A stretch of DNA of 64,000 nt from Amphiura filiformis (taxonomy: Eukaryota; Echinodermata; Ophiuroidea; Amphilepidida; Amphiuridae), in NCBI RefSeq assembly GCF_039555335.1, contig NC_092637.1:9136815-9200814 (forward strand), in the 5' to 3' direction. Shown here piece by piece: positions 8,097-60,387 of the stretch; within the stretch, counting starts at the first letter, position 1; every line of letters starts with the position of its first letter. Below the pieces are notes generated by a model, which saw nothing but the letters and a program-made list of their open reading frames with translations, did not search any database and was not told where the DNA came from. The position numbers and the translations under genes were made by a program.

Positions 8097-8269
8097 CATA
8101 ATACTGAGTCTGAAGCGCACTTTAGGCAGTGATGGCGTATATCGCTTTTTGCAACTCTTCAAATTTTCTCCATTACATTTCCTACATTAAAAAGCTACAT
8201 CCCACTGCAAAGTACTAAAACACTACAATCCGTGATTTTTTTATAAAATAGCTTATAATTTAGGCCACA

Positions 8270-18048: not shown

Positions 18049-18050
18049 TT

Positions 18051-18399: not shown

Positions 18400-20137
18400 A
18401 GTAGAACTCGATTTTTAAGTAGTGAAAAATCAATAAAACAGTCAAGAAATCCTTTGTTTCCTATATTGTTAAGTTCAATGGATCATATATCCAGTGGCAC
18501 TGGAGACATCCGGGCTCAGTTGTGGTGGATGGTCACATATTAGACGAGTCAATTTACGTTGGAGTGAGCTAGCCTAAATTGGAACACGGATGCCTTTGCT
18601 TGCCAGTGACTATATAAACACCCTCCTGAACATAGTCAAAAAGAAGAAAAAGTAAATAGGGGAACATAGTAATTTGTATATATCCAAAATGACCTATAAT
18701 GCAGGGCTCAAATTTCAATATTGGGCGATATGGATAAAATAAAAACCATCTAAGATCTTATTGTATATCGCTCAGTTCCAGGATTCAGAAAAAGTATAGT
18801 TTGACCTATCTCCGATGTACAGTTCTTGAGTTATAGGCACAAAGGTCAAACGTTCAATTTTAGCCTCCACCATTCTACATGTTCTATGATTGTCCACATG
18901 AAGTAAAAAAATGCTCTGATTTTGATCAAAGTGGTCTCAAATTGTACCATTTCAAACAACTTTTTAAACAAGAATAGTTTGTATTACCTATACCTGTACA
19001 TCACAAGGTCAAGTTTATGGTAGGCATACATGATTATGGGCTTTGAGTTTTTAGCCCTGTTACATGATATTTTTGACAAGCGAATGAATCTGCAATAAAT
19101 GTTTTGTACATAGGACTAGGCCTACCTCTTGTGGTTTAAAAATCCTCACATATTTTTGAGAAAAGTAGGGGGATCACGAAATGACCCTTTAAATTGATTA
19201 TTATACCGGTAATCTATTCCAAATCCAGTGACACCGCATAAATTTCCCTCAGAACTTTGGATGTATTGATATAGGGCAGGCCTAGGTATTGATTGAATCA
19301 ACATGACAGGGGATGCCAAGTATTTATTTTTTGTCATGAAAGGCCATCCATACAAATGCTCCTTCAAATATATCCATTTTAGGGCGTACGAAAATGTATT
19401 TTTAGCATTCTAAATGCATGGACGTTCATCAGGTACAGGTTGCTACGAACTGAAGCCTATTTCATTGTATTTTGAAGCAAATTTCACGTATTTACATAGT
19501 ATTAGTAGGTTTGATTATGAAATATTGCATGTTAATTGTTTTATACATCATTTTGTCATGAACTTGTGATTTTTATTTTTCGTGTTTGATAAGCTTACAG
19601 TCATGATGCAGACCTATACGCATGCACAAAATAAAATAAACGGAAACAGGACACCTCGCCTACACGGCATCTCGCCTATACGCCACTTCGCCTACGTGCC
19701 ATCTCGCCCCCTATGCAATGCAGTGCATTGCAATGGCGATTGCGGATGTATAATCGGGTGTATAATAGTCGGGCTCTCATTCACGCGCGGATGGGAAATA
19801 GTGTTCACTTTATAGTTGATACGGTTTCTAGACTGAAATTTTGCGTAGAACACGCTCCTGTAGTCCACTTTAATTAAAAATGTGCCCAAAGTGCTTTTTC
19901 GGGGGGTGCCCCTACAATGGGGGTCAAAATTACTAAAAATGTATTCTAAGGCCAATGGTGGTGATTTTGGTGTCTAAATATATGTTTATGGACATGAGAA
20001 AGTCATTTAGACAGTTTACGAAATCCAAAATGGCTTCCTTATGTTCCAAAATTCAAAATGGCGGCCAAAATGGTGAATTGTAGCCAAACTTATTTGAACG
20101 GCTTTTTCAGGCCGATGGTGGTGATTTGAGTGTCTAT
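18400..20137. other. No gene recognised
   Basis: AT-rich sequence. At 19648-19712 a short degenerate array of CCTCGCCTACACG-like words recurs in reverse at 32270-32345 (GGCGTGTAGGCGAAGTG), together with flanking words (TGCATTGC, ACATCC), so this is one dispersed repeat present twice. Confidence 0.4.
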
Positions 20138-20405
20138 GAATAGAAAGGAAGGAAAGAAATAAAGGGATGGAAAGGAAGGAATAAAAAGAAAGAAAGAATG
20201 GAAGGAAGATAAAGAACGAAAGAAAGGGAGGAAAGAAGGAAGGAAAGAACGAAAGAAATAAGGAAGGAATGAAAGAAGATGGAAGGAAGGAAAGAAAGAA
20301 AGATAGAAGAAGGAAGAAAGAATGGAAGAAAGTAAGGAGTAAAGAAGGAAGGAAAGAACGAAAGAAAGAATGGAAGGAAGGAAGAAAGAGAGAAGAGAAG
20401 AGAAA
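20138..20405. repeat. Purine-only GGAA/GAAA microsatellite
   Basis: About 270 bp of almost uninterrupted A and G on the plus strand in irregular GGAA, GAAA and GAAT steps. The minus-strand Ser/Phe/Leu-rich open frame across it is an artefact of this composition. Confidence 0.95.
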
Positions 20406-20559
20406 CTTACCGGTACTACTCTGGTAAAAAAAACCAAAGAAAGACTAAATACAGGATGAAACAAACTAAATAACCTATAAGTAGGCCTACTTGTACTTAG
20501 AAATCTCCAGAATAAAGAAACTTACTTAAAAATCTTGTACATTATATATATTCTTTGTT

Positions 20560-20627
20560 TTATTGCTGTAATGCGCTTTGGGATCGCTTGATGTATTGCG
20601 CTATATAAAAATAAAGTATTATTATTA
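20560..20627 (+). mobile_element. SINE 3' tail fragment
   Basis: AATGCGCTTTGGGATCGC, GCGCTATATAAAAATAAAG and a terminal (ATT)n run are the kind of tail seen on many animal SINEs. The Helitron copy that starts at 20628 is inserted inside the ATT run, which resumes at 21638. Confidence 0.6.
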
Positions 20628-21637
20628 CTAGCGGGACACCCGCGCTACGCGCGGGTCCCCGCTAGGTGAGTAAATGGGAGCGTTCACTAAAAACGGGAGG
20701 AATTACTGAACAGGTAGAATCATTGAAAAGGTAAATTTCATTTATCTGAGTCTGACCCTCGTTAAGCCTAAGTTTCCATTTTAGCCTCTTTCTTTCTTTT
20801 TAGTTTCTTCTACATGGGCCAATTTTGTTCCATTTTTTAAAAACATTTTGCTGCTAAGCTTGCAAATTTCCGTTACCATGTTTTTTATTTACTCAATCCC
20901 GTTCCCATTATTTTCTAAATCTGTCCTTTCTTACATTTCCCCGTTGACTTCATTTTTTATTTGCTGCTAAGCTTGTGATTTCCCGTTTTCATGTTATTTA
21001 TTTAGTTTAATAGCTTTTTTTATTTAAATCATCTAATTTTATTAGATTTTATTATTCTTTCCTTCTTTAGCCTATTTTATTCCCGTTTTCATTTTCTTAC
21101 TGTGACTAACTATAGGCTAACCCACATACTCGTAGGCCTACCTGTTTGTCCTTATTTTGTTTTCTTTTTTAATTACAGTAGGCCTACCTCTTCATGTTGT
21201 TTATACTTTTTAACACACATCTTTTCCCGTATTTATTACGCCTACGATTGGTCGTTCACCCGTATTATCATTCATTCTTGTGCGACTCTCGTCGTTTACT
21301 GCTGACATGGCGTAGTGCTGCGTTACCGCTTCGCTATCGCTGCGCTTCTGACTTGCTTGGCATTAGATCGCCCGTCTGACGCGCATGCGGGCTAACTTGA
21401 CAACTGACTCCCTTTATTTGTTTACCCAGCATAGCAAAGTACAACATTTTCACTAATTTTGAGGCCAATTCTTGACCGTTTTCAACCAAATAAAGTTTAA
21501 ACACGTTCCCGTATATTCATCGATCTCCCGTATGAATTTGGCGACATTTGGATCGAAACTGACGGAGCCTTTATAGCATACATAGATAGATACATAGATA
21601 CATAGATACATACAACATTTCCCTATTTATAGTAAGA
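20628..21637 (-). mobile_element. Helitron (non-autonomous), copy 1, inverted
   Basis: Read on the minus strand it begins TCTTACTATAAATAGGG and ends in a GC hairpin plus GTCCCGCTAG. Host bases are A before TC and T after CTAG, as Helitrons require. 1010 bp. Contains (ATCT/ATGT)n microsatellite near the 5' end and a GC-rich variable block. No Rep/helicase. Confidence 0.9.
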
Positions 21638-22172
21638 TTATTAATATAGTCGGGGTATTGAGGTGAACCTGGAATTGGATTAGGCTCGATATAGTTTCTG
21701 ATTCTCTGACATTGCCTGACAAGATATCCGACCATGGATCCGATCCTGTAAAGACTGACATATGTCGCAATTTTTTCATCATCATATTTGCATCATGATC
21801 ATTGAGCAATTTAAATATTACCAAAAATGGCTGAAATGGACCCAAAATCGAGAAAATGGTAATTGGTATCTATACTAAGATATGGACCAAATCTAGAAAA
21901 TGGTAATTGGTATATAGACTATTAAGTGCATGCGTTTTGACTCATTAAAACCTGGCACTGTACTGTAAAAGCCAGACCAATTCCGAATTGAAACATACAT
22001 CAGCCTGTGAATGATGATCTGATGAACCATGCACTATAAAACGTCAGACTATTATTAACTCAGCTCAGATCGAAAGTGTAGATTATGTTCGGTTTTTAAC
22101 ACACCGTGCTGATGTGGTTATAACAATATTTTTTAAATATTTTAATATGTGTATGCATTTTTTCAACATGCA
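21638..22172. other. Sequence between inverted and tandem Helitron copies
   Basis: About 535 bp without a recognised gene. A short local repeat of AGAAAATGGTAATTGGTAT is present at 21853 and 21896. Confidence 0.5.
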
Positions 22173-23170
22173 TCTTACTATAAATAGGGAAATGTTGTAT
22201 GTATCTATGTATCTATCTATCTATGTATGCTATAAAGGCTCCGTCAGTTTCGATCCAAATGTCGCCAAATTCATACGGGAGATCGATGAATATACGGGAA
22301 CGTGTTTAAACTTTATTTGGTTGAAAACGGTCAAGAATTGGCCTCAAAATCAGTGAAAATGTGGTACGTTGCTATGCTGGGTAAACAAAAAGGGAGTCAG
22401 TTGTCAAGCTAGCCTGCGCGCGTCAGTGACGGGCGTATCTAATGCCAAGCCGCTCGCGTAAGCGCAGCGATAGCGCCAAGGGTAACACAGCACTACGCCA
22501 TGTCGCTGCGTAAGCGACGCAGAGTCGCAAGAATGAATGATAATACGGGTGAACGACCGACCGTGAGGCGTAATAAATACGGGAAAAGATGTGTGTTAAA
22601 AAGTACAAACAACATGAAGAGGTAGGCAGGCCTACTGTAATTAAAAAAGAAAACAAAATGAGGACAAACAGGTAGGCCTACGAGTATGTGGGTTAGCCTA
22701 TAGTTAGTCACAGTAAGAAAATGAAAACGGGAATAAAATAGGCTAAAGAAGGAAAGAATAATAAAATCTAATAAAATTAGGTGATTTAAATTAAAAAAAA
22801 GCTATTAAACTGAGGACAGAACTAAATAAATAACATGAAAACGGGAAATCACAAGCTAAGCAGCAAATAAAAAATGAAGTCAACAGGGAAATGTAAGAAA
22901 GGACAGATTTAGAAAATAATGGGAACGGGATTGAGTAAATAAACAACATGGTGACGGAAATTTGCAAGCTTAGCAGCAAAATGTTTTTAAAAAATGGAAC
23001 AAAATTGGCCCATGTAGGCCTAGAAGAAACTAAAAAGAAAGAAAGAAGCTAAAATGGAAACTTAGGCTTAACGAGGGTCAGACTCAGATAAATGAAATTT
23101 ACCTTTTCAATGATTCTACCTCATTTACTCGCCTAGCGGGGACCCGCGCGTAGCGCGGGTGTCCCGCTAG
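22173..23170 (+). mobile_element. Helitron copy 2, first unit of tandem array
   Basis: Begins TCTTACTATAAATAGGG after host A; ends with hairpin GACCCGCGCG/TAGCGCGGGTG and CCCGCTAG, directly abutting the TC of the next unit. 998 bp. Nearly identical to copy 1 over most of its length. Confidence 0.92.
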
Positions 23171-24171
23171 TCTTACTATAAATAGGGGAATGTTGTATGT
23201 AACTATCTATGTATCATGGAAAGGCTCCGTCAGTTTCGATCCAAATGTCACCAAATTCATACGGGAGATCGATGAATATACGGGAACGTGTTTAAACTTT
23301 ATTTGGTTGAAAACCGTCAAGAATTGGCCTCAAAATCAGTGAAAATGTGGTACGTTGCTATGCTGGGTAAACAAAAAAGGGAGTCAGTTGTCAAGCTAGC
23401 CCGTGCGCGTCGTGCAGGCGTATCTAATGCCAAGCCACTCGCGTAAGCTGCTAGCGATAGCGCTGGTAACGCAGCACTACGCCATGTCGCGCAGTAAGCG
23501 GCGAAGTCAGCGCAATGAATGATAATACTGGTGAACGACCGACCGTGGGGCGTAATAAATCGGGGAAAAGATGTGTGTTAAAAAGTACAAACAACATGAA
23601 GAGGTAGGCCTACTGTAATTAAAAAAGAAAACAAAATGAGGACAAACAGGTAGGCCTCTCGAGTATGTGGGTTAGCCTATAGTTAGTCACAGTAAGAAAA
23701 TGAAAACAGGAATAAAATAGGCTAAAGAAGGAAAGAATAATAAAATCTAATAAATTAGATGATTTAAATAAAAAAAGCTATTAAACTGAGGACAGAACTA
23801 AATAAATAACATGAAAACGGGAAATCACAAGCTAAGCAGCAAATAAAACATGAAGTCAACAGGGAAATGTAAGAAGGACAGATTTAGAAAATAATGGGAA
23901 CGGGATTGAGGAAATAAAAAACATGGTAACGGAAATTTGCAAGCTTAGCAGCAAAATGTTTTTAAAAAATGGAACAAAGATGGCCCATGTAGAAGAAACT
24001 AAAAAGCAAGAAAGAATCTAAATTGGAAACTTAGGCTTAACGAGGGTCAGACTCAGATAAATGAAATTTACCTTTTCAATGATTCTACCTGTTCAGTAAT
24101 TCCTCCGTTTTAGTGAACGCTCCCATTTACTCACCTAAGCGGGGACCAGCGAAGCGCTGGTGTCCCGCTAG
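23171..24171 (+). mobile_element. Helitron copy 3, second unit of tandem array
   Basis: 1001 bp, TC...CTAG. The hairpin differs in compensating fashion (GACCAGCG/AAGCGCTGG), keeping the stem although the bases changed. Confidence 0.92.
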
Positions 24172-25073
24172 TCTTACTATAAATAGGGGAAAGTTGTATG
24201 TATCTATGTATCTATCTATCTATCTATGTATGCCTATAAAGGCTCCGTCAGTTTCGATCCAAATGTCGCCAAATTCATACGGGAGATCGAGGAATATACG
24301 GGAACGTGTTTAAACTTTATTTGGTTGAAAACGGTCAAGAATTGGCTGCAAAAACAGTGAAAATATGGGTAAAACGGGTTTTTGTTATGAAAATCGGTCA
24401 CCAGCCTCACGCGTCACTGCAGCTGGCCGGCAGCGCGTCGTCAGGCGTCAAGCGTAATGTCGCGATTACGCCAATGCTCGCGTAAACGGCGCAGAGCCAC
24501 ACGATGTGCGAGCCAGAGACCAGTGGACATGATAATAGGGAAAGAAGGAAAAATAATAAAGGACAAAAAGGTACATGGACGGGTCACGGGATGAAGCGGT
24601 ACTATAAAGAAAAATTAAATTAAAATGAGGACAAAAAGGTACGAGTAATTAGACCAACGGGTTAAAGTAACTAAATGAAACGGAACGAAACAAAGAAGGA
24701 AAGAAACTATTCAGGAAATGTAAGAAAAAAAAAGAAGCTAAAATAATGAGAACAGAATTTAATTAAAAAAACATGGAAGCGGGAAATCACAAGCAGCAAA
24801 TAAAAAAAAAAGATGCTAAAAGGGAAATATAAGAAAGAACAGATTTAGAAAATAATGGGAACTGGGTTAAATAAATAAATAACATGGAAACGGAAAATCA
24901 CAAGCTAAGCAGAGGAAACTAAAAAAGAAAATGTTAGAAGAGACAGATTTAGATAAATAAAAATGTACGTTTTCAATGATTCTACCTGTTCAGTAATTTT
25001 TCCTGTTATAGTGAACGCTCCCATTTACTCATGATCTAGCGGGGACCCGCGCGAAGCGCGGGTATCCTGCTAG
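24172..25073 (+). mobile_element. Helitron copy 4, third unit of tandem array
   Basis: 902 bp, the most diverged unit: part of the interior from about 24380 to 24640 is replaced or reshuffled relative to the others. Ends still TC and CTAG, hairpin GACCCGCGCG/AAGCGCGGGT. Confidence 0.9.
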
Positions 25074-26097
25074 TCTTACTATAAATAGGGAAATGTTGTA
25101 TGTATGTATCTATCTATCTATGTATGCTATAAAGGCTCCGTCAGTTTCGATCCAAATGTCGCCAAATTCATACGGGAGATCGATGAATATACGGGAGCGT
25201 GTTTAAACTTTATTTGGTTGAAAACGGTCAAGAATTGGCCTCAAAATCAGTGAAAATGTGGTCCGTTGCTATCCAAGGTAAACAAAAAAAGCAGTCAGTT
25301 ACTAAGCTAGGCCTGCGCGTCGAAAGGGCGTATCTAATGCCAAGCAGCTCGCAGAAGCTATAGCGATACCATGCTGGTAACGCAGCACTACGCCATGGCA
25401 CGCGTAGAACGACGCAGAGTCACGTAATGAATGATATTACGGGTGAGCGACCGTGGCGTAATAAATACGGGAAACAGATGTGTGTTAAAAAGTACAAACA
25501 ACATGAAGAGGTAGGCCTACTATAAATAAAAAAGAAAACAAAATGAGGACAAACAGGCTGTACGAGTATGTGGGTTATACTTAGTCACAAAATGAAACCG
25601 GGAATAAAATAGGCTAAAGAAGGAAAGAAAGAAACTCTTCAGGAAATGTAAGAGGAAAAAAAGCTATAATAAAATCAGGAAGTTTAAATAAAAAAGCTAT
25701 TAAACTGAGGACAGAATTAAATAAATAACATGAAAGCGGAAATCACAAGCTATGCAGCAAATAAAATAGAAGCTAAAATGGAAATGTAAGAAAGGACAGA
25801 TTTAGAAAATAACGGGAACGGGGTTGAATAAATAAAAAAACATGCATGGTAACTGAAAATCGGAAGCTTAGCAGCAGAATTTTTTTTTAAATGGAACAAA
25901 ATATTGGCCCATGTAGAAAAAACTAAAAAGAAAGAAAGAAGTTAAAATGGAAACGTAGGCTTAAAGAGGGTCAGGTTCAGATAAATGAAATTTACCTTTT
26001 CAATGATTCTACCTGTTCAGTAATTCCTCCTGTTTTAGTGAACGCTCCCATTTACTCATCTAGCGGGGACCCGCGCGTAGCGCGGGTGTCCCGCTAG
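25074..26097 (+). mobile_element. Helitron copy 5, last unit of tandem array
   Basis: 1024 bp, ends hairpin plus GTCCCGCTAG and then host T, completing the A|TC...CTAG|T insertion rule for the whole array. Confidence 0.92.
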
Positions 26098-27990
26098 TTT
26101 TTATAATTTGATAACTTCGTGTTAAAGTGTCATACGTGAATTTTTATGAAGATAATTTTTTATGAAGATAATTATAAAGAAAAATATGGCAGTCTTAATT
26201 TTCTTAATATTTTCCCAGATACCATTGATTGTTAAAACTTTCAGCCTGCTTTTAATAACGTGATAAAGTGTTTAAAATAAATGTTGGCCATTTTCTCCGA
26301 GACAAATTAAAAACAAACCGCGCGAGGGAGGGCCTGATGTGCTATGCGTTTCGCCTCTTTTTACACCGCGGGTACTTGCTGCCGACGATTGCTTGACAAG
26401 TCCCCTGCGTGCCTGCACACCGCCAGCCAAACCACGGAATGGCCCGGAAATTGAATATACTGGATACGTTGCGTACTACGGTCACAGTGCCATTGATTTA
26501 CCCATGTCATACCCGGCGATTTCAAGCGAAAGTCTTTATTTGCCAGCCTTGTTGGAGGACGGGTAGTGTGCGCAACAAAAAATTTGTAATTGCGGGCCGT
26601 GTTAAAACATGTTTTGTGCTTGTAAGTCCGGACCATGCACACGAAGACGAAGGAAAGCCATTGAATTATGGCAAAATCATAAGGGTAATGAAAGTTGATT
26701 CCAAGTTTCCCATCATCCGCATCACTTTTTTTACATTATATTAGCTTATATTTTCACGAACAATAATTAATTTAATATGTCCGAAATTTAGGCCTTATAA
26801 AAGTATTTTTATGTTAAATCCTTATGTTTTTTACTTGGGGTATTTTATTTTTACAGGTATGTTTTCATGATTGAACAATTAGGCCCCTATTATATATTTG
26901 AAATGTGTTATTTTATTTCACAAATTATGTTTACTTACTTCATATAAGTTCATACTTTTTAGTGTTAAATTAATTATGGCCAGTATGGCCTAATAATTTA
27001 TATAATATAGCAAAAAAAAAGCGCTAATTGCGAGTTTTGTGTATTTTTATTTAACCGAATCATTCTTTTTACCGACTCAAACTCAGTTAAAATAGCCTAA
27101 AGTTTGAGATGTTCAAAACTTTTAAAACTTGCAGTCCTATAAAAGATATCAAATCAGAGATCTTCTTTGACATAGCCTAATGAAACAATTAAGGGAAAAA
27201 ATATTTGGCAAATTTTTCAAAGACAAATGTGCACAACTACCAAAACAAACAGCATGCAGCTTTGAGATATTTTGTGGGGTGCTGTGCAGTGACTTATGCC
27301 CCATTTTTGCACCGCGTGTTAGCGGCGGATATTAGCTACCACTTACACGAAAACGCCGGGTGTGATTATGTTCAATCAACGCATGGCACCATGATTCTGA
27401 GCACGCAAAAATGCCAGAATACACCGACGTACCTTCCTTGACATGTCCCGGGCCCCGCGCGCGGCCGCATGCCTTACACACTTATGTACGATCGATTGCT
27501 TGAAGTCCCGGGTCAAGTATGCTCTCAGTTTGATTAAAACCCGAGAATTATCACGGGCCATGTTTTGTGCTTATGACGGTAGGCCTATTGGAGGCACGCC
27601 AAGAAGAAAAAAAGTTTCAAATGTTTGCAAAACTGGTTAATATACGATTTCGGTAAAATTTTAATTTGGGGTTATTCTTTGTCAAATATTATTAGTAACG
27701 CTACCTAATAGGCCTACACCGGGCCTACACATCCAAAGACCCATCATTTTCTTCTTGTTTTCACGCAAAAGGCCAGCTCCCAAGACCATTTTGTGGGAAA
27801 CGTCCTAAATTTTAGAATTTTTTATGGCCCAGAAAGAACTCTTTGGGGGGGGGGGGGTCTTCCCTCGAAAGGCCTCATTTGTTAGCAACTGCCCCCGAAA
27901 GACCTCTTTTTTTTTATCCTACTCCTCTTTGTCGCACATTTTTGCCCACGAAATACCTTATGACCGCAAATAATAATATTAAATATATTA
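26098..27990. other. No gene recognised; two GC-rich islands
   Basis: AT-rich background with two GC-rich patches, 26310-26640 and 27270-27600, that share words (TTTTTACACCGCG/TTTTTGCACCGCG, GATTGCTTGA, CGGGCC with ATGTTTTGTGCTT) in the same order. They look like two old copies of one repeat. Poly-G at 27846-27857. Confidence 0.4.
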
Positions 27991-32389: not shown

Positions 32390-33882
32390 GGCGATCCTGA
32401 CTTATAGACCACCCGAGCTATAAGGTACAAATTGCAAATTTATCATATTAAACTTTTGCAACAAGGTCAAACATGATCTCAACTGTACAAACATGATCTC
32501 ATTCTCAACTGTACAAACATACCTTCTATTCCATCAAACAAGCTTTATTTTGTTCAAAAATTCAAGTTTTTATAGCTATTTTTGACGTAAAAGAGCTGGT
32601 AACAAAACCGGTGATGCCAGCTCCGAAGTTTTCGCGTAGCACAAGCGCTTGATGTACGCTCGTTTTGACGATAATTTACGCTAGCGTGTCATGCATTTTC
32701 AAGCGCGTTTGATATCGTTTTACTGCATGAAGCAATTCTGCATATTTACATTGTTTATTCAAAATGGCGAATTTCTCGAAAAACATGATACATTTTACGG
32801 CGATCTTTTCTTTTAGACCACCCGAGTTATATAAGGTTAAAATTACGATTTTACCAAATTAAACTTTCACAACAAGGTTAAACATGTTCTTAGCTATACA
32901 AACATACCTTTTATTTCGTCGAACAAGCTTTATTTTGTTCCAAAATCCATGTTTTTATCGCAATTTTTGACATAAAAGAGCTGAATACTAAACCGGTGAT
33001 ACAAACTCCAAAACTTTTCGTTTTGACGGTGATTTACGCTCGCGTATCAAGCATTTTTAAGCGCGTGTGACAGTATTTTAATGCATGACGCAATTTTGTA
33101 TTTATTCAAGATGGCGAATTTCTCTAAAAACACGATGTATTTTTCTTTAAAAAAAATATCATTTCACACATTCTTTGCCACTTTTCACTCATCTGATCAT
33201 CTTTTTATGTGACTGAAGTGATGCTGATTGTATGAAGGTATGTTTTTTGCTTTTCCGATCATTTTTAAATTGTTCTTTGAGACAAAAACTTCTTTGCAGA
33301 ATAGCTGTTTTCACATATTTTCAAAAAGTTGTTTTAACCTTGTTTTTTACCCCATAATTTCCCTCATTTATCGAAGCCCTGCCCTCCTTCCAATACATTA
33401 AACCTTGACTTCAAAGTGTTTGGCAACTGTTTAACCTTGATGCAAAAGGAAACCTTGATGCAAAAGTAATATTTTAGTCCCTATATAGCGAGGGTGGTCT
33501 AAAGGAAAAGATCGCCCATTTTACCCCGAAATTTCACTCATTACTCAAAGCCCTGCCCGTTTTCACAATATTTTAGCTTCTTGGATATCATCGGAGACAT
33601 AGATTAGTAATATTAGGTAGGTCACTGTATTTTTAAAGATTTTTTTAGATGATTTTTACGATGAAAAAATTGACGTTTTAAGCTTTTTTCAAAAATTGGT
33701 TTTTGCTTGTTAAAAAATGGGTAAAAAATTGTTTTTAGCTTGTTGGATATTTTTGCTAAATAGTTTAAAGCTTGACTCCTTAGATGAAACTTTTAGTTTA
33801 AGCTTGTTAGAATATTAAACCTTGATGAAATAGTAATATTTTAGCCCTATATAGCGCGGGTGGTCTAAAAGTCAGGATCGCC
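32390..33882. mobile_element. DNA transposon with GGCGATCC ends and 8-bp target duplication (outer copy)
   Basis: Ends GGCGATCCTGACTTATAGACC and GTCTAAAAGTCAGGATCGCC, flanked by GAATTTCT on both sides. Without the inner insertion it would be ~767 bp. The interior is non-coding. An 8-bp duplication is compatible with hAT, P or Merlin elements; I do not choose. Confidence 0.88.
32799..33516. mobile_element. Same family nested inside itself (inner copy)
   Basis: 718 bp, ends GGCGATCTTTTCTTTTAGACC and CTAAAGGAAAAGATCGCC, flanked by the 8-bp duplication CATTTTAC, which is outer-element sequence. Interior words (TTTTACCCC, CGAAGCCCTGCCC, AACAAGCTTTATTTTGTTC) match the outer copy. Inner ends share TTTTC and outer ends share CTGAC, so pairing is unambiguous. 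Confidence 0.88.
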
Positions 33883-33986
33883 GAATTTCTGAAGCATGTG
33901 AAGCGGTGACCTGACTTTGCTGTTATTTACTTGTGAAAGGGGCTTGGGGGAGGGGGTCATGAATTTGTTTATCCGTTATCCATGTT

Positions 33987-34215
33987 ATACTAAAATGCAG
34001 TAAACCTTTGACGAGCGCGTATTGTTCATGTACATATAAGTATATACATCGCGTATTTACTGCGTTGCACGCACTTGTCTCTGATTGGCTGCTGAGGCGA
34101 TCTGTTGTTGCCGAGTGGAAATTTATGAATGAACTGTGCGCCGTACGCGTTGTTAGCGCCGAATTTGCAACATCACGGTAGTCGCGCTCGTCAAAGGTTT
34201 GCTGCATTTTACTAT
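33987..34215. mobile_element. MITE with CTAAAATGCAGTAAACC ends
   Basis: TATACTAAAATGCAG-TAAACC and TTTGACGAGCGCG are mirrored at the right by CGCGCTCGTCAAAGG-TTTGC and TGCATTTTACTATA: ~33-bp ends, ~229 bp total. Confidence 0.82.
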
Positions 34216-34616
34216 ATCACTGCCGTACTAACTAACAGTAACATTATTATCTGTATTCTGTAATGATGGCTGTGCAATAATAATGAATGAGCCCCCCCCC
34301 CCCCGTTGTAGTTCGAACGTTACTTTGAGGACTTGTTCTCAAGTTGTAGCAGGTGCCATAGGGTGTCTTCAGCGTTAATTGTTTTCATTATAAATGTCGC
34401 AAAATATTAATATTGACAATAATTAACAACCTGTTTGACCTCTCCATGTATTCATACATTGCTCACCTGTGTTTTCATATCATATTTTGTTGTGAAAAAT
34501 CCTAACAAATGTATAATTTGCAATCATTTTTGGAGCAACAATTTCTTCGTACCGACGGCTTAGTGTGTATGTGAATGCACATTAAACACATAAAACACAT
34601 ACACAGCACCTGTTGG

Positions 34617-34640
34617 AACTCCCCGTCGGAGCGGGGAGTT
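34617..34640. other. GC-rich hairpin AACTCCCCG/CGGGGAGTT
   Basis: Nine-base perfect arms around TCGGAG, followed by T-rich sequence. It lies ~590 bp upstream of GTSF1-like copy 2. It does not match the histone stem-loop and no role can be assigned. Confidence 0.6.
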
Positions 34641-35231
34641 TCAATTATTTTTCCGTAAGAGCACTCACCGATTTTTGAAAAAGTATGGACGATGTAGACC
34701 TGTGTTATTTAAGTCTTGGCCTAGGCTAATATGGTTCAAAATTCGGACCGCTCGCCATTTAAGTTTACTGTCTTTCTTCTTTTAAAATCTGTTGACGTTG
34801 TTAATGTTTTTGGAGCCATATGCAGCCAGACTTCAGAAAAAAATGACGACCGCAATGTGGGACTTGCATGCCATAGGATAATCCTATCCTAAGGATCATG
34901 CAAGGCAAGGGGCGTACCATGTGTAGGTTGAATGTTGAGCATATTAGTGAAGTTATCTACACATGTAAGATGAAATTGAAAGTATGTCGCTAAAATGTTG
35001 TGACCATGTGCACAGGATAATTTTGGGTCGGTCGGTGGAGGGCAAGCAAACCAATTTTTTTACCTAATGAATGATAAAAACAATAAATTTTATTCTTGTC
35101 CATCCAACAACTACAGTATTTTCTTCTCCCTGATCTCATATCTCCATACAGTTAACACATATCTTCATCATCATCTTCAACAGCAGCATCAGCAGCATCA
35201 TCATCATCAGCAAGAGCAGCCAACCTCCAAG

Positions 35232-38200
35232 ATGAATCCCAACGTGATCCAGATGCCAAACATGAGGTCAGCGGACCCAGACCAGCTGTTTGTGTGTCCA
35301 TATGATCCAATACACAGAGTGGTTGCTAAAAGGTTTCCATATCATCTCATGAAATGCAGAAAGGTGAGTACAGGGTTTGGGTGGGGTCAGAGTCTTAGCC
35401 AGAAATCAGAAACCACCCGTCCAAGCAGATAGCAAAATTTGACCCTCAAATATAAAGCAACTTGTCTATACCCATGGAAGGGTCACTAGGGTCAAATATG
35501 TCCTGATTTGGCCTTTACATGTCCCTCTGAATTAGTCTCAAGTTCATACAACCTTAAAATCATCTGTTTTAGAGCTATCAGTATCACATCTGTAAAATCC
35601 ATTAAATCCACCCGTCTAAAATTAGATTAGGCCGTCTTAAAGACAGGTGGACGCATGGCTGGCTAAGACCTTGGGTGGGGTTACCGTTTGGGTGTACCAA
35701 CAAGAGGTCAGCAGACCCAGACCAGCTGTTTGTGTCAGTCGCGCTATGGTGCATTTTAACCAAAGTCGCAAGCCTGGGTCCGTCACAATTTGAACTGTAA
35801 GATGATCAGTTGTCACTACGAAGCATAACACAGTACATGCGCAGTGTTGACGGTGGAATAAGTCTAGAGTACTGGGTTTGGGTGGGGTTAACGTTTGGAT
35901 GGATGCAATAGTTAAAATTATATGGCTTTTATGGGGTGGTGGAGAGGCCAAAATGGTGGTGATTGTGCATATTTGATCATGAGGAGCTCCCAAAAACCTT
36001 TTTGGTGCCTTTGAACCCATAAATGTTTTGTCAAATACTGCTAGGGCTATTTTGTGAAATTTGGAGGCTCATTGCCTTAAGCCTTGTTGATAACTATATA
36101 AACGAATCCAAATTCACGCATTCCTATACCTTAATGGCTGCCAAAGTTGGGTCCCCGTCGGCTCAATCTCACATAAAATGTGAAATAATGCGGCCTTGGA
36201 GGGTATTTTAAACTGCATTCTATCACCTGTGTTACACGTAAACAAAAGAATAATGACAGAATACAACACAAAAGAATCTAACATCAAATTTTAAGCGGCT
36301 TTAATCCACCCAATTGGGCAGTCACTACACCAGTGTGGTGCATGCGGGGACCCGTCATGGCCGACCAAATCCTGACCATGACTTGGCTCGTTGGATTCGT
36401 CTATAGGTGCCAAGTCCACCTATCAGTGGCGTAACTAGACTTTTACAATCGCGGGGGAAAGGGTCCAATTGGTTCCCTTCTGATTATGCCACTGCCACCT
36501 ATAGACCAATCCAGTTAGTTTCATGGCATTTTTGTGAACATAATTTCATACATTATTATGTCAATCAGATGCATACTTGTGAAGCAATCTGTTAATAAGA
36601 TTTTTTTGTTTTCAGAACTGGGGAGGAAGAGCCATGTCCACATGTCCATTCAATGCTCGTCACATTGTCCCTCAACCGGAGTTCAGACATCATGTTGCCA
36701 ACTGTCCGGATAAAGCTTGCATTGAGCAGGATATGGCATACGGTAAGTGGAACAACCACAGGTCACATTGTCCCTCAAAATATTTAATACAGGGTGTTGA
36801 CACTGTGTGGAATAACCACACCAGGGACCGCCTCTTAAGGAATGCGCATGTCTGGGGGTACTAGATACAAATGACAAGAATCGATACTGACAAGAAATTT
36901 ATCAATATTTCGTCATCCTTTAGAAGTAGAATATTCATTAAAAATATACCGTATATCCTTGAATAGTCGCCCTCAAGAGGCATGGGGGGCATTTATTAGA
37001 GGTCATTTTAGAACAATAATTCCTGCTAAAATTGCTTGGTTAGCTTAAAACTTATGCTGAAATGACGAACTATGAACTTAGGAGCGATGACTTCCGGTTC
37101 ACTTCCGGGTTTACGATCAGACTTTCGCCAACTACCAAAGCCATTTAGCAATTTTGTGTGCACCTTGGTAAGCTTTAATACTGCACAGGATACATGCAGG
37201 GTCTTAGCTAGCCACCCGTCTGGCCATCATTTTAGACGGCCAGTTTGCTCCTGGGACGGGCAAAATTAATGCCTTTGACAGATGCTATATTATAAATTGT
37301 ATGTTTTGAGAAGCTAATTGACCTTTTTAGGAGACCCAATTTGTAGAACAAGGCCATATCAGCACATATTTGAACTCTTTGAACCCCCAATGGGCTATAG
37401 ATGTCTGGTAAATGTTTTAAAGGTCAAATTAGGACAGGCAATTTTATTCAAATGACGGGCAACCCTCGATTTCTAGCTAAGACCCTGGATACATGTACAT
37501 AGAAATATCAGCATTTTTGAAACATCTTGGTTGAAAAAATGGTGGGGGCATTTAATTGGAAGGGGCGACTATTTGTGGATATACAGTAGCCCATTTACCT
37601 CAATCAGCAAGGTGTTAGGCACTAGAGCAATGAGCAGGGTCTTAGCTAGCCACCCGTCTGGCCGTCATTTTTGACGGGGAGTTTGCTCCTAGGACGGGCA
37701 AAATTAATGCCTTTGACAGATGCTATATTATAAATTGTATGTTTTGAGAAGCTTATTGACCTTTTAGTAGACCAGATTTATAGAACAAGGCCATATCAGC
37801 ACATATTTGAACTCTTTGAACCCCCAATGGGCTATAGACATCTGGTAAATGTTTTAAAGGTCAAACGAGGACAGGCAATTTTATTCAAATGACGGGCAAC
37901 CCTCAACTTCTAGCTAAGACCCTGGCAATGAGTGAATGATGTTACAAGTTCAGGCCTTCACAATGGCATAATTCTGTTGTTGTGGAAAAATTCCAGTGGA
38001 CAAGAAACTAACTGCGAATTGATGGGCCAGTAGCATATATCCAGCGGTGGGCTGGGCAGGTTGGGGCAGAATTCCCCCGGACAAAAACTGAAAGAGAAAA
38101 GTGTTTCTCTGACAAAAAATGAAAGAGAAAATTGGGAGCCTGTTTCCCCACCCAAGTTCACCCCTAACATGGGCCAAAATAGTCTAAAATAACAAAGGTT

Positions 38201-41200
38201 TGCATGCTACGCTTGCACATTGTCCCAATAAAGCCCTTTTTGGAAGCTGGAAGACTTCTACATAATATATACCGTATCCACCCAGGTATAAGCCCACCTT
38301 CGGCTATAAGCCCAGCAGCCCACCCCCTATTTACAAAACATTCTGGGAACAAGGGTGCACTCAGGTATAAGCCAAGTACTAAATTTTGGCCAAGTTCTTT
38401 TATGAAATCAATGCTTTGCTCTCATATTTTAAAAGAACAAATATTATAAAAAATATCAGTTGATATAAACATTCCACACTTATAAAATTTTTAAGAAATT
38501 GGCATAAAAGATAGAAATTACTGGTACATGTACATTGGGCAATTTACAAATGGTGCTGATTGTTCTTATTTTTAAATTCAAGCACTAGCCCTTCCCCGGT
38601 TATAAGCCCACCCCCATTTTTGAAGTGAAATTTGCCATCGGGGGTGAGCTTATACCAGTGGTTACGGTATGTACATGTACATTGTACAGTCTCGCTCAAA
38701 AAACTGTTGATAATACTGGGTCAAAATGATACATCCTGAAATTTTGGAATAATCCCAAATTTTTGCTCCATATGAATATCAAGATGTATGAAATCTGGGC
38801 TCTCTGGTTTTAATAATATTTAAAACTTTGAATTCCTTTTTAAAATTTTTATTTCCGTTTAGTGCAAAGGAAAGAATGCCAAGATGGAAGCTATGTGAAA
38901 GGTTGCACAGACATTCCTGCCTACAACAGAAAGATACCGTCACCAACGGAAGACTGGGACAGAGAAATATCAGCAGAAATAGATGTGGGTTATAACCCTG
39001 ATGATCACTTGCATCCAGGAGTGTTCAGGAACCTTACAGGGTAGGTAGCAACCAGTGCTGGGGGAGAGGGGGGGGGGGAGGAGGGAGGCACCCAACAGAA
39101 GACTGGAACAGAGAAATATCAGCAGAAATAGAAGTGGGTTATAACCCTGATGATTAATTGCCTCCAGGAGTATTCAGGAACCTTACAGGGTAGGTGACAA
39201 CCAGTGCTGGGGGAGAGGAGGGGGGGGGCACCCAACGGAAGACTGGGACAGAGAAATATCAACAGAAATAGAAGTGGGTTATAACCCTGATGATTACTTG
39301 CCACCAGGAGTATTCAGGAACCTTACAGGGTAGGTGACAACCAGTGCTGGGGAGAGGAGATATGGGGGGGGGCACCCAACGGAAGACTGGGACAGAGAAA
39401 TATCAACAGAAATAGAAGTGGGTTATAACCCTGATGATTACTTGCCACCAGGAGTATTCAGGAACCTTACAGGGTAGGTGACAACCAGTGCTGGGGAGAG
39501 GAGATATGGGGGGGGGCACCCAACGGAAGACTGGGACAGAGAAATATCAACAGAAATAGAAGTGGGTTATAACCCTGATGATTACTTGCCACCAGGAGTA
39601 TTCAGGAACCTTACAGGGTAGGTGACAACCAGTGCTGGGGAGAGGAGATATGGGGGGGGCACCCAACGGAAGACTGGGACAGAGAAATATCAACAGAAAT
39701 AGAAGTGGGTTATAACCCTGATGATTACTTGCCACCAGGAGTATTCAGGAACCTTACAGGGTAGGTGACAACCAGTGCTGGGGAGAGGAGATATGGGGGA
39801 GGGGGGGCACCCAGCGGAAGACTGGGACAGAGAAATATCAACAGAAATAGAAGTGGGTTATAACCCTGATGATTACTTGCCTCCAGGAGTGTTCAGAAAC
39901 CTTACAGGGTAGGTGGCAACCAGTGCTGGGGGAGGGGAGGCACCCAATGGAAGACTGGGACAGAGAAATATCAACAGAAATAGAAGTGGGTTATAACCCT
40001 GATGATTAATTGCCTCCAGGAGTATTCAGGAATCTTACAGGGTAGGTGGCAACCAGTGCTGGGGGAGAGGAGGGGAGGGGGACACCCAATGGAAGACTGG
40101 GACAGAGAAATATCAACAGAAATAGAAGTGGGTTATAACCCTGATGATTACTTGCCACCAGGAGTATTCAGGAACCTTACAGGGTAGGTGACAACCAGTG
40201 CTGGGGGAGAGGAGATATGGGGGGGGGGGCACCCAACGGAAGACTGGGACAGAGAAATATCAACAGAAATAGAAGTGGGTTATAACCCTGATGATTACTT
40301 GCCTCCAGGAGTGTTCAGAAACCTTACAGGGTAGGTAGCAACCAGTGCTGGGGGAGGGGAGGCACCCAATGGAAGACTGGGACAGAGAAATATCAACAGA
40401 AATAGAAGTGGGTTATAACCCTGATGATTAATTGCCTCCAGGAGTGTTCAGAAACCTTACAGGGTAGGTAGCAACCAGTGCTGGGGAGGGAGGCACCCAA
40501 TGGAAGACTGGGACAGAGAAATATCAACAGAAATAGAAGTGGGTTATAACCCTGATGATTAATTGCCTCCAGGAGTATTCAGGAATCTTACAGGGTAGGT
40601 GGCAACCAGTGCTGGGGGAGGGGAGGCACCCAATGGAAGACTGGGACAGAGAAATATCAACAGAAATAGAAGTGGGTTATAACCCTGATGATTACTTGCC
40701 ACCAGGAGTATTCAGGAACCTTACAGGGTAGGTGACAACCAGTGCTGGGGGAGAGGAGATATGGGGGGGGGGGGGCACCCAACGGAAGACTGGGACAGAG
40801 AAATATCAACAGAAATAGAAGTGGGTTATAACCCTGATGATTAATTGCCTCCAGGAGTATTCAGGAGGAACCTTACAGGGTAGGTGGCAACCAGTGCTGG
40901 GGGAGAGGAGGGGAGGGGGACACCCAACGGAAGACTGGGACAGAGAAATATCAGCAGAAATAGAAGTGGGTTTTAACCCTGATGATTACTTCCCACCAGG
41001 AGTATTCAGGAACCTTACAGGGTAGGTGACAACCAGTGCGGGGGAGAGGGAGGGGAGGGCACTCAACATTGTTCAAACTTGAGCCAAAGCTGCATGGGAA
41101 CTTTCATGTAATGGTTCTGCAACCAAACTTGGGTCATAGCTGCAATTGGGAGGGGGGGGCACCCAACATTTGTCCATTATTATGTTTTGATAATTCCAAG

Positions 41201-44200
41201 TGTGTGAAAATATTGGATCCAGAATATATCTGTAATAATGATAAAATTTGAATCTTTACGCCCAATATATATTGATCTCGCTATGAGTTTTAAAATATTG
41301 GACTACGCCTCGTTCAATAAAACTCATCCGACCAATAAATATGGGCTCAATCAATCCAATTTTATATCAAACTTGAGCCAAAGCTGCATTATGGGAACTC
41401 TCCTGTAATGATGGTGTTCAAGGTCACACACTGAGATCAAAGGTCATTTGAGGTCAACTAACAAAATGGGACCCTTGACCATTGATAAAGCTTCCAAGTT
41501 TACACAATTGATATAGATGCTCTACATTTGATATCACAGGTACACACCAGCAGAGAAGAGAGCGTTCCACCAAAGAACAGGGAAGTTCCACTACAAAACT
41601 CAAGAAGAGTAAGTATGGCCTCCTGGGCTTCTAAGAACTATTTTGATTGGTTACAAAGAGGCCTACATGTGTATATTATAATATTGAGCCAATCAGAGAT
41701 AAGGTAAGAAGAGTCAGTATGGCCCGCTGGGGCTCTAAGAACTATTTTGATTGGTTACAAAGAGCCCTATATTATATATTGAGCCAATCAGAGATATGGT
41801 AAGAAAAGAAAGTATGGCCTGGGGCTCTTGAGAGCTATTTGATGGTTACATTGAGGTCTATTGAGCCAATCACAGATCCTGTCACAGATATGGTAAGAAT
41901 GACTATTCTTGTGCACCAAATATAGTTTGCACTGGGCCAAAATTGTGATGTACTGCCTCTGAGTGAACACTGTATACATTCCTATGTCCTGGCAGTCTGA
42001 TGCCTGGATTGGGTGGGGTCTTGATTTTGTTTATGGTGGTGATTTACGGCAGCTGGGTTTTGAAAATGACCTTAAAGTTGTACCTAGTGGATGTAGTGGA
42101 TTTTCTGGTATTTTTTGTCCTGACTGGGGATGGGGGAAACTAGAACTGCCCTGGTGCTTACATGGATCGAATCCATGGGTTCCTACAGTCACCCATGGAA
42201 AACAGGGTACTGAAAACCAGTACAGCATGTTCATATGGGGCATGAGTTAGTTTGTTTACATTGCAGTAATTCCCTCAGAATAGTCAATACAGATTCCAAA
42301 CAGATAAAACTTACCTCACATCAGTTTTAGTTGCCCTTAATAACTCCAAATTGACATGACATTGAATTCTATTTGCTCAATTTCATACCAAAATCAAGGA
42401 AAACATGGTTTTGTTATTGCAAAATAACATGGAAATCACACAGGGTTATATCTGGTCACTCTAGTAGGCCACTTGAAGTAATCAATATTGGTACTTGAAT
42501 GACATGACTCTGTGACTTTCTGCTCATTGTAAGACTGATGTGTTGTAAACTTGATTGCATAACATTAAGATTGCCAACTGATATCCTTTGTATTTGAGTT
42601 TTCAATTATGGGAGTACTTCTGTCATTGATGTAAACATTAAAAAAAATGTCAACAAAACATGCTACTGTACAACTCTATTCCTGTATGTGTGTGTCTGAG
42701 GGCTGATGACACACATTCGATGGGTGTACCTGGTGCTGCCACTGTATCCACCTTTCCATTGACACCCTGGGTCTGTTACTCTTTGTTTCATCTTGCAGTG
42801 TGGACACTCATGTTCCCGGCAACATAAAGAGAGATACCACCCAGAACCATGTCATCCATACACCGACTGCTGTACGACCTAGTGGTGGGGCAGCGCCCTT
42901 CACAGCCCAACCACAGAGCACAGCATCAGAAAATACAAACACAACTCAACACATGAGGCTACCGAAACAGCCGCCGAAAGCTGCCGTGGTGGCGGCTGCT
43001 GCGTCACTGCCAAACGGGAGGGAGAGTTGCGCATCTAAGAGAGGTAAGGGGGAGTGAAGTAGGATATCAATCTTTTCTCTGTTAATTTCAAACCACAAAT
43101 CTAAAATCATTTCATTGGGCGCAGCTTCAATCGCTAGTTTTCGCTTAAGGCCAAAGTAATGGGAGAGAACATGGACCTTTTCGAGCATCATTATTTCTGA
43201 ATTGTATGACCAAAGTATATAAAACTATACATTTTTGGAAAGGAAATGAGTCAAGGAATCACATGGTGTCGCCAGATTTGTTCAAAACTCTCGCGTTTTT
43301 GAAAAAATCACAAAAATTCACTTTTTTACCCCATATTTTTTTTGTGACAACTTAGAAAAAAATCTGTTCAGAGTAAAACAAATTCAGTTAGCTTTTCGTG
43401 AAGAAGAGACATGAACTTAGGGAAGGTTTTATTATTTTTTTGAAATTTGTCTCTTTTTTCGAAATATTGAAAAAAAACATGTGAAAAAAGCAATTTTGTC
43501 ACTCTATTAAGCTAAAAATTGCACACAATGGTGTATATTTTTGTTTAAAACAAATATTTTGAAAAAATGAGAAAACCTTCCCCAGACTTTGATGAACTCT
43601 AAACGATAGTACAAAAGGTTTACCTTTTGCTTGCATATTTTTTGAGTTATTTTGTCACAAAAATCGTGCAATATCGTCAAAAGTGAACTCTGAGAAATCG
43701 ACGTTTTAGTAAAAAATGTCAAAATTATGCACAAAACGTCCTTATATTTTAAAACGGTAAGACTTCCACGCTTGTAAAAGCTGTATCTGGTGCATGGTCT
43801 AAATATGCATCTTTTTACACCAATGAATCTATAATACCTGCTTTCAGTGCGCCAAAATTTAAAAAAATTAAAACATCTAAGTGGCATTTTGACTGCAAAT
43901 TTTTGTTTTGTTTACACCACATTTGCTGGCGTTAACAACATACCAAATGCGCCTTGACTGCGTTGGACATACGCACAGAGTTGCGCCGCATCACGCGATG
44001 CGAATCGCGCGCGTAATGACAATATTTCGCGTTTGCGCATTTCTGACTCATTATTTCCCGCCAATTTACTAAGCTGTCTTGAGCCATGTGACTTTTTAGA
44101 GTTGGAAAGAGTGAAATAAATCAAGCAAAAGTACGAGGAAATATTAGCAAGTTGTATTTTACCAGTTTCAAGTGAAAGAATACATCTTAGTGTTGATAAA

Positions 44201-47200
44201 TATCAAGAAATCTCAAATTCGGGCGTGGACGAATGTGTCTTCCATTACTCTGTCCTTAAAAGCGCTGTCATACACACAAAGGTCCTTTAAAGACGTCCCA
44301 TAGATGTGCGAGAAACAGCTTCCTCAGCGCGTTGACGTCACTGCCACATCAGTGTGAAAATGGTATATATACACAAGTGTGTGAAGGGACAATCACATTA
44401 TTTTCTATAAAAAATATTTCGCATATAGTCTGTCTCGTTCAGAGTATTATATCAATTGTTGGATCCCACTGTGGCAGATTCTAATAACCCGCTGTAACCT
44501 TATCCTGCGGGGTGTATACACATCCAGTGATTTGTTCGTATGCTGGTGACGCATCTGTGTAAATGAACTGACAGATTCACTGCAAAATTCGACATGGAGT
44601 TACTCTCAACTTAAGATGAGACAAACTACATGTATAACTAAATGACGAAATGATAATTTTTCTGATCCAAGTGCCATATTTGCCCAACAAGGATCTGTTT
44701 CAGCAACATGCTACTCAAAATTGTACTTGATTTCATTGATACTTTCATGATATAGGTTTTCGGATATCCAGGGTTTCAGTTTTGAAAATAATAGGCGTGC
44801 TACAAATCGCACTTCTGGAAATACTCAGGTGTGCTATTAAATTGCACTCGGTTAGAAGTTTAGGAATTGAGGTGTGCTATAAATTTAAGGTGTGCAATCG
44901 CACTCACACACCATAAAACTCAATCCCTGGATATTACTATGAGTACGAACTTGGTATAGAGATAAAGACAGTGATAGTGATGGCAAGGACTGAGGCTTTC
45001 ATGTGGAATAATGAGTTGGAATTCAGGGAAGACTTTCTTATTTTCAAAATAAATTTGTTATTTTAGAATAATGCTAGTTACAACTTGGAATGTAGCTGCT
45101 ACTATTATCTGTTCCAGCTGCAATGAAGCTCAGTGACACCTCATGCTTATATAGACCTTTTCAAACTGATCCATTTCGATAAAACCGGAAGCATGAAATA
45201 ATTTCCCCTGTTGTGTGCACCTAAAAGTACCTCTTCAGCATCATATACAGTGCGAAGTTCCAATGTGTAACAGGCATCATAAACTACGATGAACTTTCGA
45301 CGGTCAATTATGGATGAGAGAGGTACTTTTGCCAAGGATACTCAATGTGCAATCAAGCGTGTGGTGGTATGTCTTGTGTAAGAGACTGACCTGTGGAAGA
45401 GGTGATGCATAAAAAAATGTTCTGTAAAATTTTTTTAACTGACGAAAAAGACGAACATTTGATCATTTCTTTCCATTAGGACTCCGTAGCTTACTTAAAG
45501 CCATAATTTGTGATCTGCTTCACAGCAACGCCCTCAATTTTACTTGGATTTCTACTTTTTGCATAATTATAATGCCCAGTGGTGTACTAAAATACCATGT
45601 AAAAGACTATGCCTGAAGTGATTTAATAACAGTAAAATTTAACTTTTTATATTAAAACCGGGTCGACCCGGTTTTATTCAGAGTTCATTGTTCGACTGCT
45701 TGCTAACACCTCACGTGTGTCAGCTTATGTGTACACACGTCGGGCGCGATGATCTGTGCAGTATTACATGTTACGATCGGTGAGCGTAGTACACACATTT
45801 GTAGGCGCTGGAATGAAATCACAATTTTCTTCGTTATACCTCATTTGTTTGGCTCGAAATTAAAAGAGGATAATGTGATCAGTGAAAACAAACATTTAAA
45901 TAAGAATCTATTCTTTATGCAAATCACACATTATTGCTTTAATAGCGCGGTTTTCCAAACATTTCCGATCTTTATATGAAATGGTCTATTCTATTGTCCT
46001 GGGTAGAATGTACTCGCCTGAGAGACCATGTGTTATTATCATTTCAACAACTCTTCCTATACCTTTATACAGGAGCCAACTGTTGTTAATCCGTGATGAA
46101 TCCACAGTCCAGTAGCGTATACGTGAACGCAAGGTTACGCGTACGCGTTACGCAAGAGCGCGTAAAATTTGTCATGCCTGGAACTTACGCGTTAACATGC
46201 ACTCTCTTATGTTGGATGTCCGGCTCGTCTGCGTGGTTTAAAGCTGCCCGAGCGAAGTAAACCATGCAGACGACGCGGACGCATCGTTGTTAATCGGTGA
46301 TGAACAACGGTGAAACATGATTGAATCCCTTTCAACAACGAAAACAAGCTAAAGATGTCTAATTCACATGAATCTCTCATTCGGAATGTCCGTTTGTCAT
46401 TGTGACTCAAACTTAATACAAGAAGATCGGTGAATTCTCTGTTAATATCAGCAATAAAACTAAAGAATAAACCGGTAACGTTTAATCGCTACCTCCAACA
46501 TAAGGGAGGACAGTTTTTATGGTCTACTGAGCTCAGCAATGCTTTGCTGTCTTCGATAGCGCATTGTATCAGAGAGGTACCTGGCTTTTATCAAAGCCCA
46601 AACCCATTGAAGCCTGTAGCAAACTCTTTTAGGCTCTGCTCAATTGACAACTCTGCTCCGATACAACGCATTGACCAAAATATCGATCGAATCAATTTTA
46701 CGACCATGCTTGAATTAACAACCCCTTGAAACCTAATTACACCACTTTATGTAAACATAAACTTACACACATTATTTACTTTCTATTGACTGCAGCCACG
46801 ACCCAAGACATGCTTATTTAATGACCACTTGAGTAATTGATGAGTGGGTCGTTATGTACTTACTGAACACAAAGGAAATTGATTTTGGTTTTACCATCTA
46901 CTGTGTTTATAATCCTGCTGCTCTGCTGAACGCTCTGATAGATATCAGCAAACTCATATACTGTTCGCTTGTTCCTATCGAACGCTCTAGCGTACATGAA
47001 CCATTATCGAAGACAGCAAAGCATTGCTGAGCTAAATAGACCATAAAAACTGTCCTCCCTAAGAGAGTGCGTAAGTTCCAGGCATGACGAATTTTAGGCG
47101 CTATTGCGTAACACGTACGCGTAACCTTGTGTTCGCGTATACGCTACTGGACTGTGGATTCATCACGGATTAACAACGGTTGGCTCCTGTATAAAGGTAT

Positions 47201-60172: not shown

Positions 60173-60387
60173 TTAACCCCCTGAGCACTACCTGCCGATC
60201 TAACATTGCCTCTGATTGGTCAATTACATGATATCTTCATTGAAATCACCAATCAGAATGGAGGTGTGCAAATAATTCACCCTAATTTTTTTTGTGTGGT
60301 GAAATTATTCTTACAATGTTGCTGATTGGTCCTATTGATAAGGAAAACTTCTTTTTGGCCAATCGGCAGGTAGTTCTCATAGGGTTA
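60173..60387. mobile_element. piggyBac-type MITE, copy 4, at the 3' end of MRNIP
   Basis: TTAACCCCCTGAGCACTACC ... AGGTAGTTCTCATAGGG-TTAA, opposite orientation to copies 2 and 3. Its right TTAA and terminal bases form the last codons and TGA stop of the MRNIP frame as it stands in this sequence. Confidence 0.87.

Follow-up and report, generated by a model that had tools for sequence, protein, structure and literature searches.

Intron 3 of a GTSF1-like gene, an animal gene belonging to the piRNA pathway, carries 14 head-to-tail copies of the last 92 nt of its own exon 3, each followed by a splice donor and a G-rich linker, just as the first-pass annotation of this DNA had claimed. We consider this array probably to be a 'mirage'-type minisatellite over the border of exon 3 and intron 3, founded by a duplication at short homology, grown by unequal exchange, and spliced out with intron 3. 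Tandem repeats over exon-intron borders are a kind already described, namely the 'mirages' of amphioxus. The array would belong with them by anatomy, and not by descent, since four anatomical features were tested and all four were found. It looks like a large example of this repeat type, and is probably harmless.

The gene lies on the + strand of the window, by which we mean the whole stretch of 64,000 nucleotides analysed. Five exons were read (Table 1), and these join into an open frame of 250 amino acids. Exons 2 through 5 are each preceded by AG, and all five exons are followed by GT. The proposed identity of the gene as GTSF1 is borne out by matches of the predicted protein to PDB entry 6x46 (gametocyte-specific factor 1, E 1.1e-25) and to chain 9nhb_E, 'GTSF1' (E 2.3e-11), with the alignments to 6x46 and 9nhb covering both CHHC zinc fingers. 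Similarly, Pfam finds a U11-48K-like CHHC finger from exon 2 on, the second finger being the only one submitted. In the alignment to 6x46, the tryptophan of the EDWD motif falls at position 107 of the chain, which would make it the PIWI-binding tryptophan expected of GTSF1 / Asterix. Joint mutation of W98, W107 and W112 in mouse GTSF1 is reported to weaken MIWI binding more than 60-fold, and the same three residues are suggested to define a PIWI-binding surface (PMC9385479). Intron 2 of the gene also contains a direct repeat of 293 bp, 94% identical, at 37196-37488 and 37634-37925.

Table 1. Exons of the GTSF1-like gene, units of the intron 3 array, and copies at other exon borders (window positions; a slash marks the splice cut)
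Feature	Position	Strand	Details
Exon 1	35232..35363	+	Counted from its ATG; first CHHC finger; donor AAG/GTGAGT
Copy of exon 1 part	35699..35735	+	In intron 1; 37 nt, 94.6% identical to 35259-35295
Exon 2	36616..36742	+	Second CHHC finger; Pfam zf-U11-48K, E 1.9e-07; donor ACG/GTAAGT
Copy of exon 2 part	36762..36778	+	Near the start of intron 2; 17 nt, exact copy of 36659-36675
Exon 3	38863..39040	+	178 nt; EDWD motif; donor AGG/GTAGGT
Intronic array	39041..41067	+	First linker, 14 copies (exon 3 end, donor, G-rich linker), last linker to likely founding breakpoint
Unit 1, exonic part	39098..39189	+	TAA; GCA as in exon
Unit 2, exonic part	39238..39329	+	Class A
Unit 3, exonic part	39382..39473	+	Class A
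Unit 4, exonic part	39526..39617	+	Class A
Unit 5, exonic part	39669..39760	+	Class A
Unit 6, exonic part	39817..39908	+	Class B
Unit 7, exonic part	39950..40041	+	Class C; TAA
Unit 8, exonic part	40092..40183	+	Class A
Unit 9, exonic part	40239..40330	+	Class B
Unit 10, exonic part	40372..40463	+	Class B with TAA
Unit 11, exonic part	40503..40594	+	Class C; TAA
Unit 12, exonic part	40636..40727	+	Class A
Unit 13, exonic part	40785..40879	+	Class C; TAA; 3-nt insertion
Unit 14, exonic part	40930..41021	+	Edge unit; GCA as in exon
Likely founding breakpoint	41060..41067	+	Intron sequence CACTCAAC; CAAC common to it and exon 3 TCACCAAC
Exon 4	41540..41608	+	Donor AGA/GTAAGT
Repeat at exon 4 border	41602..41820	+	About three tandem copies (from 41602, 41706, 41801) of exon 4 end, donor and intron 4 start; second and third donors altered
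Exon 5	42799..43043	+	Donor GAG/GTAAGG

The array is placed in intron 3 because exon 4 is found downstream of it. TRF reports 15.0 units with a period of 133 between 38943 and 41067 (score 3165), and the + strand of the window contains ACAGGGTAGGT 15 times, once at the end of exon 3 and once in each of the 14 copies. The exonic part measures 92 nt in 13 of the copies and 95 nt in unit 13; unit starts are spaced 131-149 nt apart, the 14 linkers measure 39-57 nt, and a unit is about 142 bp long. The donor ACAGG/GTAGGT is intact in all 14 copies, and an in-frame TAA occurs in five (units 1, 7, 10, 11 and 13), so the initial observations of intact donors and of a stop codon in some copies both hold. 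The number of copies in the animal may differ from the 14 in this sequence. A four-run G-quadruplex motif is found in two of the 15 linkers, and the G4Hunter-type maximum is at least 1.5 in 13 of the 15, the last segment of which includes flanking sequence; such G-runs would be suggestive, and only suggestive, of a G-quadruplex drive of the array. As coding sequence the array is rejected, given that no stop-to-stop open reading frame of at least 90 amino acids exists on either strand within 39041-41067.

The junctions of the array point to how it may have been founded. The exon reads TCACCAACGGAAG, intron 3 after the array reads CACTCAACATTG, and the copies begin with CACCCAACGGAAG. Comparison of these three sequences places the join at CAAC, next to a G-run, as would be expected of a tandem duplication at short homology. 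We infer a single founding duplication that would have begun within exon 3 and reached about 50 nt into intron 3, with its join at CAAC beside the G-run. Repeated unequal exchange would then have reassorted and homogenized the interior units, while the true exon and both edge units stayed more divergent.

The distribution of differences among the units is consistent with such growth. Copies differ from the exon at a mean of 6.1 of 92 nt and from each other at a mean of 2.7 of 92 (the extra 3 nt of unit 13 left out). Among themselves they vary at 15 of 124 core positions, a count that leaves out the 3-nt insertion and the G-runs, and the exonic parts of units 2 through 5, 8 and 12 are identical. 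All four combinations occur in 16 of 36 pairs of informative sites (12 among the copies alone, 4 only when the exon is included), or in 10 of 28 pairs when the junction site is omitted (6 among the copies alone, 4 only with the exon). These pairs likely stem from exchange between units, with recurrent mutation as the alternative. The largest mean distances belong to units 1 and 14 (6.08 and 6.69), followed by unit 10 (5.92); the chance that both edge units are the most divergent is 1/91, a post hoc figure to be read with unit 10 close behind. GCA is common to the exon, unit 1 and unit 14 only, and units 2 through 13 all carry ACA. The interior of the array seems, on these patterns, to have turned over while its edges did not.

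Only three exonic positions set the exon apart from all 14 copies (Asp/Glu, His/Tyr and His/Pro). All three differences are nonsynonymous (chance 0.45) and, without an outgroup, unpolarised. The homogenization proposed in the first-pass annotation thus stands in so far as copies are closer to each other than to the exon and as the four-combination pairs and divergent edges indicate turnover, whereas the three fixed differences, taken by themselves, could go back to the founder copy. An ordered A-B-C pattern of unit classes is not significant, whether judged by forward steps (P 0.13), by few reverse steps (P 0.07) or by same-class neighbours (P 0.48), and a lag-3 test for an ordered A-B-C repeat likewise yields P 0.35.

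At the level of individual donors, the nine bases around the cut are identical in all 15, and the computed U1 pairing energy of each is -9.4, which lies between the extremes (-6.1 and -10.4) computed for the four other donors of the gene that were examined. Intron 3 had been described as offering 15 equivalent donors, and this is true of the donor 9-mers but not of the coding outcome. Specifically, exon 3 ends in ACA GG and intron 3 starts with GTAGGT, such that read-through yields ACA GGG TAG, with a stop directly past the first donor. When each of the 15 donors is joined to exon 4 in silico and the resulting frame is read, the first donor alone keeps the frame open into exon 4. Because the in-frame TAG is met by any read-through past the first donor, all 14 later donors give an identical truncated product of 146 amino acids, whose stop lies 145-1977 nt ahead of the next junction. 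As a rule, NMD acts on transcripts whose stop precedes a junction by more than about 50 nt, and the transcript of the truncated product is probably an NMD target. Use of an extra donor would therefore create no protein variety, just lower output or one truncated form.

The first donor is expected to be the one in use because its block alone has a genuine acceptor, as exon definition would have it, and the array would then be removed together with intron 3. RNA from slips to later donors, which would encode the truncated product, would mostly be cleared by NMD. First-donor use is not automatic, however, because DOK7 splicing is reported to favor the intron-proximal donor over its competitor, the favored donor also being the stronger of the two (PMC5585400). 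Heavy use of the later donors would cost output; that as many as 14 exist suggests that splicing mostly passes them over, or else that the gene tolerates or exploits the loss. An influence of the array on splicing is possible.

The copies had also been said to have no acceptor. Indeed, the unit does not include the acceptor of exon 3, but every unit contains a CAG/GAG of its own. The pyrimidine share of the 15 nt before this site, a crude measure of acceptor quality, is 0.60-0.67 in every unit, compared with 0.60 before the real acceptor of exon 4 and 0.73-0.80 before the other three examined. The site may serve as a candidate cryptic acceptor, in which case a frame-shifting micro-exon of 22 nt (25 nt in unit 13) may be included. 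Splicing at the best internal AGs of the 14 units would lengthen the transcript by 19 or 22 nt, or by 22 or 25 nt for unit 13, and shift the frame. For an in-frame alternative, a piece of 12 nt (in unit 13, of 12 or 15 nt), the pyrimidine share before the AG is 0.47-0.53. The idea that the copies act as cassette exons is weakened rather than rejected.

Tests for selection were made on the 124-nt core without G-runs, where 14 similar copies provide low power. None of the 15 variable sites falls inside the donor 11-mer (P 0.23, not significant). Variable sites number 9 in 92 exonic and 6 in 32 other positions (P 0.21), and the synonymous share of exonic changes is 4/9 against 23% expected (P 0.14). 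An RNA structure over two units is rejected, with z 0.51 and 141 of 200 shuffles folding at least as well. At this low power, donor conservation, synonymous share and RNA folding appear to carry no sign of selection, and no function would be needed.

Exon 3 is not alone in having copies nearby. A same-strand copy of an exon part or border lies within 600 nt downstream of four of the five exons (1, 2, 3 and 4) and upstream of none of the five; exon 5 has no copy within 600 nt downstream. In the repeat at exon 4, the extra donors read GTCAGT and GAAAGT versus GTAAGT. Random control segments elsewhere in the window, excluding starts in 33000-46000 and 18800-26800, have such copies downstream in 90 of 900 cases and upstream in 31 of 450, and non-exonic control segments near the gene, with the array left out, have them in 53 of 500. 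Against controls of about 10%, four of five corresponds to a binomial P of about 0.0005, and three of four, once exon 3 with the array as its match is set aside, to a P of about 0.004; both values come from a post hoc test, devised after the matches were seen, in which the exon 2 match is 17 nt and the exon 4 match 19 nt, 12 of them intronic. An earlier form of the test gave 3/5 versus 108/1046. We treat the downstream excess of border copies at these exons as a lead.

Other repeats are found elsewhere in the window. A dense inverted-repeat cluster at 20618-26107 apparently consists of a single element present several times, in either orientation. Between 19000 and 33500 there are 41 pairs of inverted repeats of at least 40 nt; among the 25 pairs listed, one lies outside 20618-26107, and many arms are 94-99% complementary. 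Long fold-back palindromes occupy 7851-8103, 13125-13311 and 18050-18400 (254, 189 and 365 aligned positions with 92, 87 and 84% identity, respectively), and a 33-bp minisatellite with 4.2 copies and 97% matches lies at 11234-11370. A stop-to-stop open frame of 343 amino acids on the minus strand (60377-61408) shows, by visual inspection, three occurrences of a W-x-x-F-L motif, and it matches nothing in Pfam at E 0.01. Apart from the GTSF1-like gene, eight of the 58 ORFs listed in the window were submitted to Pfam, with no match at that threshold. Scans of the window for tRNAs (ARAGORN) and for Rfam families (gathering scores) yielded zero hits each.

Amphioxus mirages are described as minisatellite-like tandem duplications of exon-intron borders, many of which keep their splice signals, in Adh3 and in the globin genes BflGb6 and BflGb9 (PMC3087553), with PGBD5 and troponin C reported as further lancelet cases (PMC3902484). 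The GTSF1 array is likewise a minisatellite-like tandem repeat across such a border; the 131-149 nt between its unit starts is within the reported unit range of 10-160 bp (PMC3087553), and it keeps 14 of 14 donors where the mirages keep splice signals in many units. BflGb6 is reported to have acceptor-side units of 150-160 bp, homogenized inside and divergent at the edges, with six and three units in two haplotypes (PMC3087553). The GTSF1 array differs in having 14 copies on the donor side, and resembles BflGb6 in that its edge units, judged post hoc, are the most divergent and its sites give the four-combination pairs noted above (16/36, 4 of them only with the exon). In BflGb9, a duplicate of 157 bp is reported on the donor side (PMC3087553), as in the GTSF1 array. 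For Adh3, somatic instability of the mirage is reported (PMC3087553). Titles and abstract starts among the matches listed make no mention of a GTSF1 mirage, and we do not claim its absence from print. A 41-nt degenerate pattern used to look for relatives has no match in prokaryote and viral contigs, as expected for an animal gene.

In human IFI6 (6-16/G1P3), Turri et al. in 1995 reportedly described a minisatellite that gives multiple splice donors. The IFI6 repeat unit is short, at 12 bp. Its tandem units supply several splice donors, as do those of the GTSF1 array, but two downstream IFI6 units are reported to act as donors for isoforms (PMC4526556), whereas each downstream donor of the GTSF1 array leads to a stop. 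Human genes in segmental duplications are reported to have internal tandem repeats at exon-intron borders, which lie in primate-specific duplicates and average four units of 30 bp (PMC2812944). These too reflect minisatellite growth at borders, which is reported to be able to alter splicing and form introns (PMC2812944), although their size contrasts with the 14 units of about 142 bp in this one gene.

What else might the array be? The extra donors could compete with the first as an unproductive-splicing switch, with the TAG and NMD tuning the level of GTSF1, or they could yield the 146-amino-acid form, which has both zinc fingers and the EDWD motif and lacks the tail. We give this a small chance. 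The 15 identical 9-mers, with U1 pairing like that of the other donors, and the single stop shared by all 14 later donors are what a switch would use, and SRSF1 and hnRNP A1 are reported to shift the choice between competing donors (PMC5585400). However, the donors bear no sign of selection, those in the exon 4 border repeat are altered, which counts in favor of a neutral minisatellite, and RT-PCR is reported to have suggested regular splicing in amphioxus mirages (PMC3087553). An assembly error, by which the array would be false or its copy number wrong, has a slim chance of being the explanation: six units have identical exonic parts, and the draft version of one amphioxus mirage is reported to have looked aberrantly assembled (PMC3087553), but here exonic sequence and linker differ together between units, forming classes A, B and C, and the edge units are distinct, where in a false array the same unit would tend to recur.

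Least probable to us is a reservoir of exon variants, in which exchange would swap the last 92 nt of the exon in frame with the donor kept, such that units with TAC would give altered protein ends and units with TAA null alleles. In its favor are the exon length kept in 13 of 14 units and the donor kept in all; in units 9 and 10, GTG and the intron bases AG at +7/+8 match the exon, and 4 of the 16 four-combination pairs appear only when the exon is counted in. Regardless, the three bases peculiar to the exon are absent from all 14 copies, which argues that no recent exon replacement came from the array as sampled. A bolder proposal, which we consider very unlikely, makes intron 3 a dose-setting splice trap. 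Its identical, U1-competent decoy donors, all made unproductive by the in-frame TAG, would form a bank of variable copy number that determines what fraction of GTSF1 transcripts yields protein. If this were true, the length of the array, if variable in the germ line as minisatellites can be, would be a heritable dial on piRNA-guided silencing, and earlier rounds of this process would have left the donor-side border copies at exons 1, 2 and 4.

If the array is instead a mirage-type minisatellite removed with its intron, as we favor, it still offers 15 identical donors at different positions with a frame that reports use of the first only, and exon definition can thus be tested directly against intron proximity. 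That one gene has donor-side border copies at several of its exons may also be informative about the growth or origin of introns. Finally, if the host is not amphioxus, mirage-type border minisatellites would extend to another lineage.
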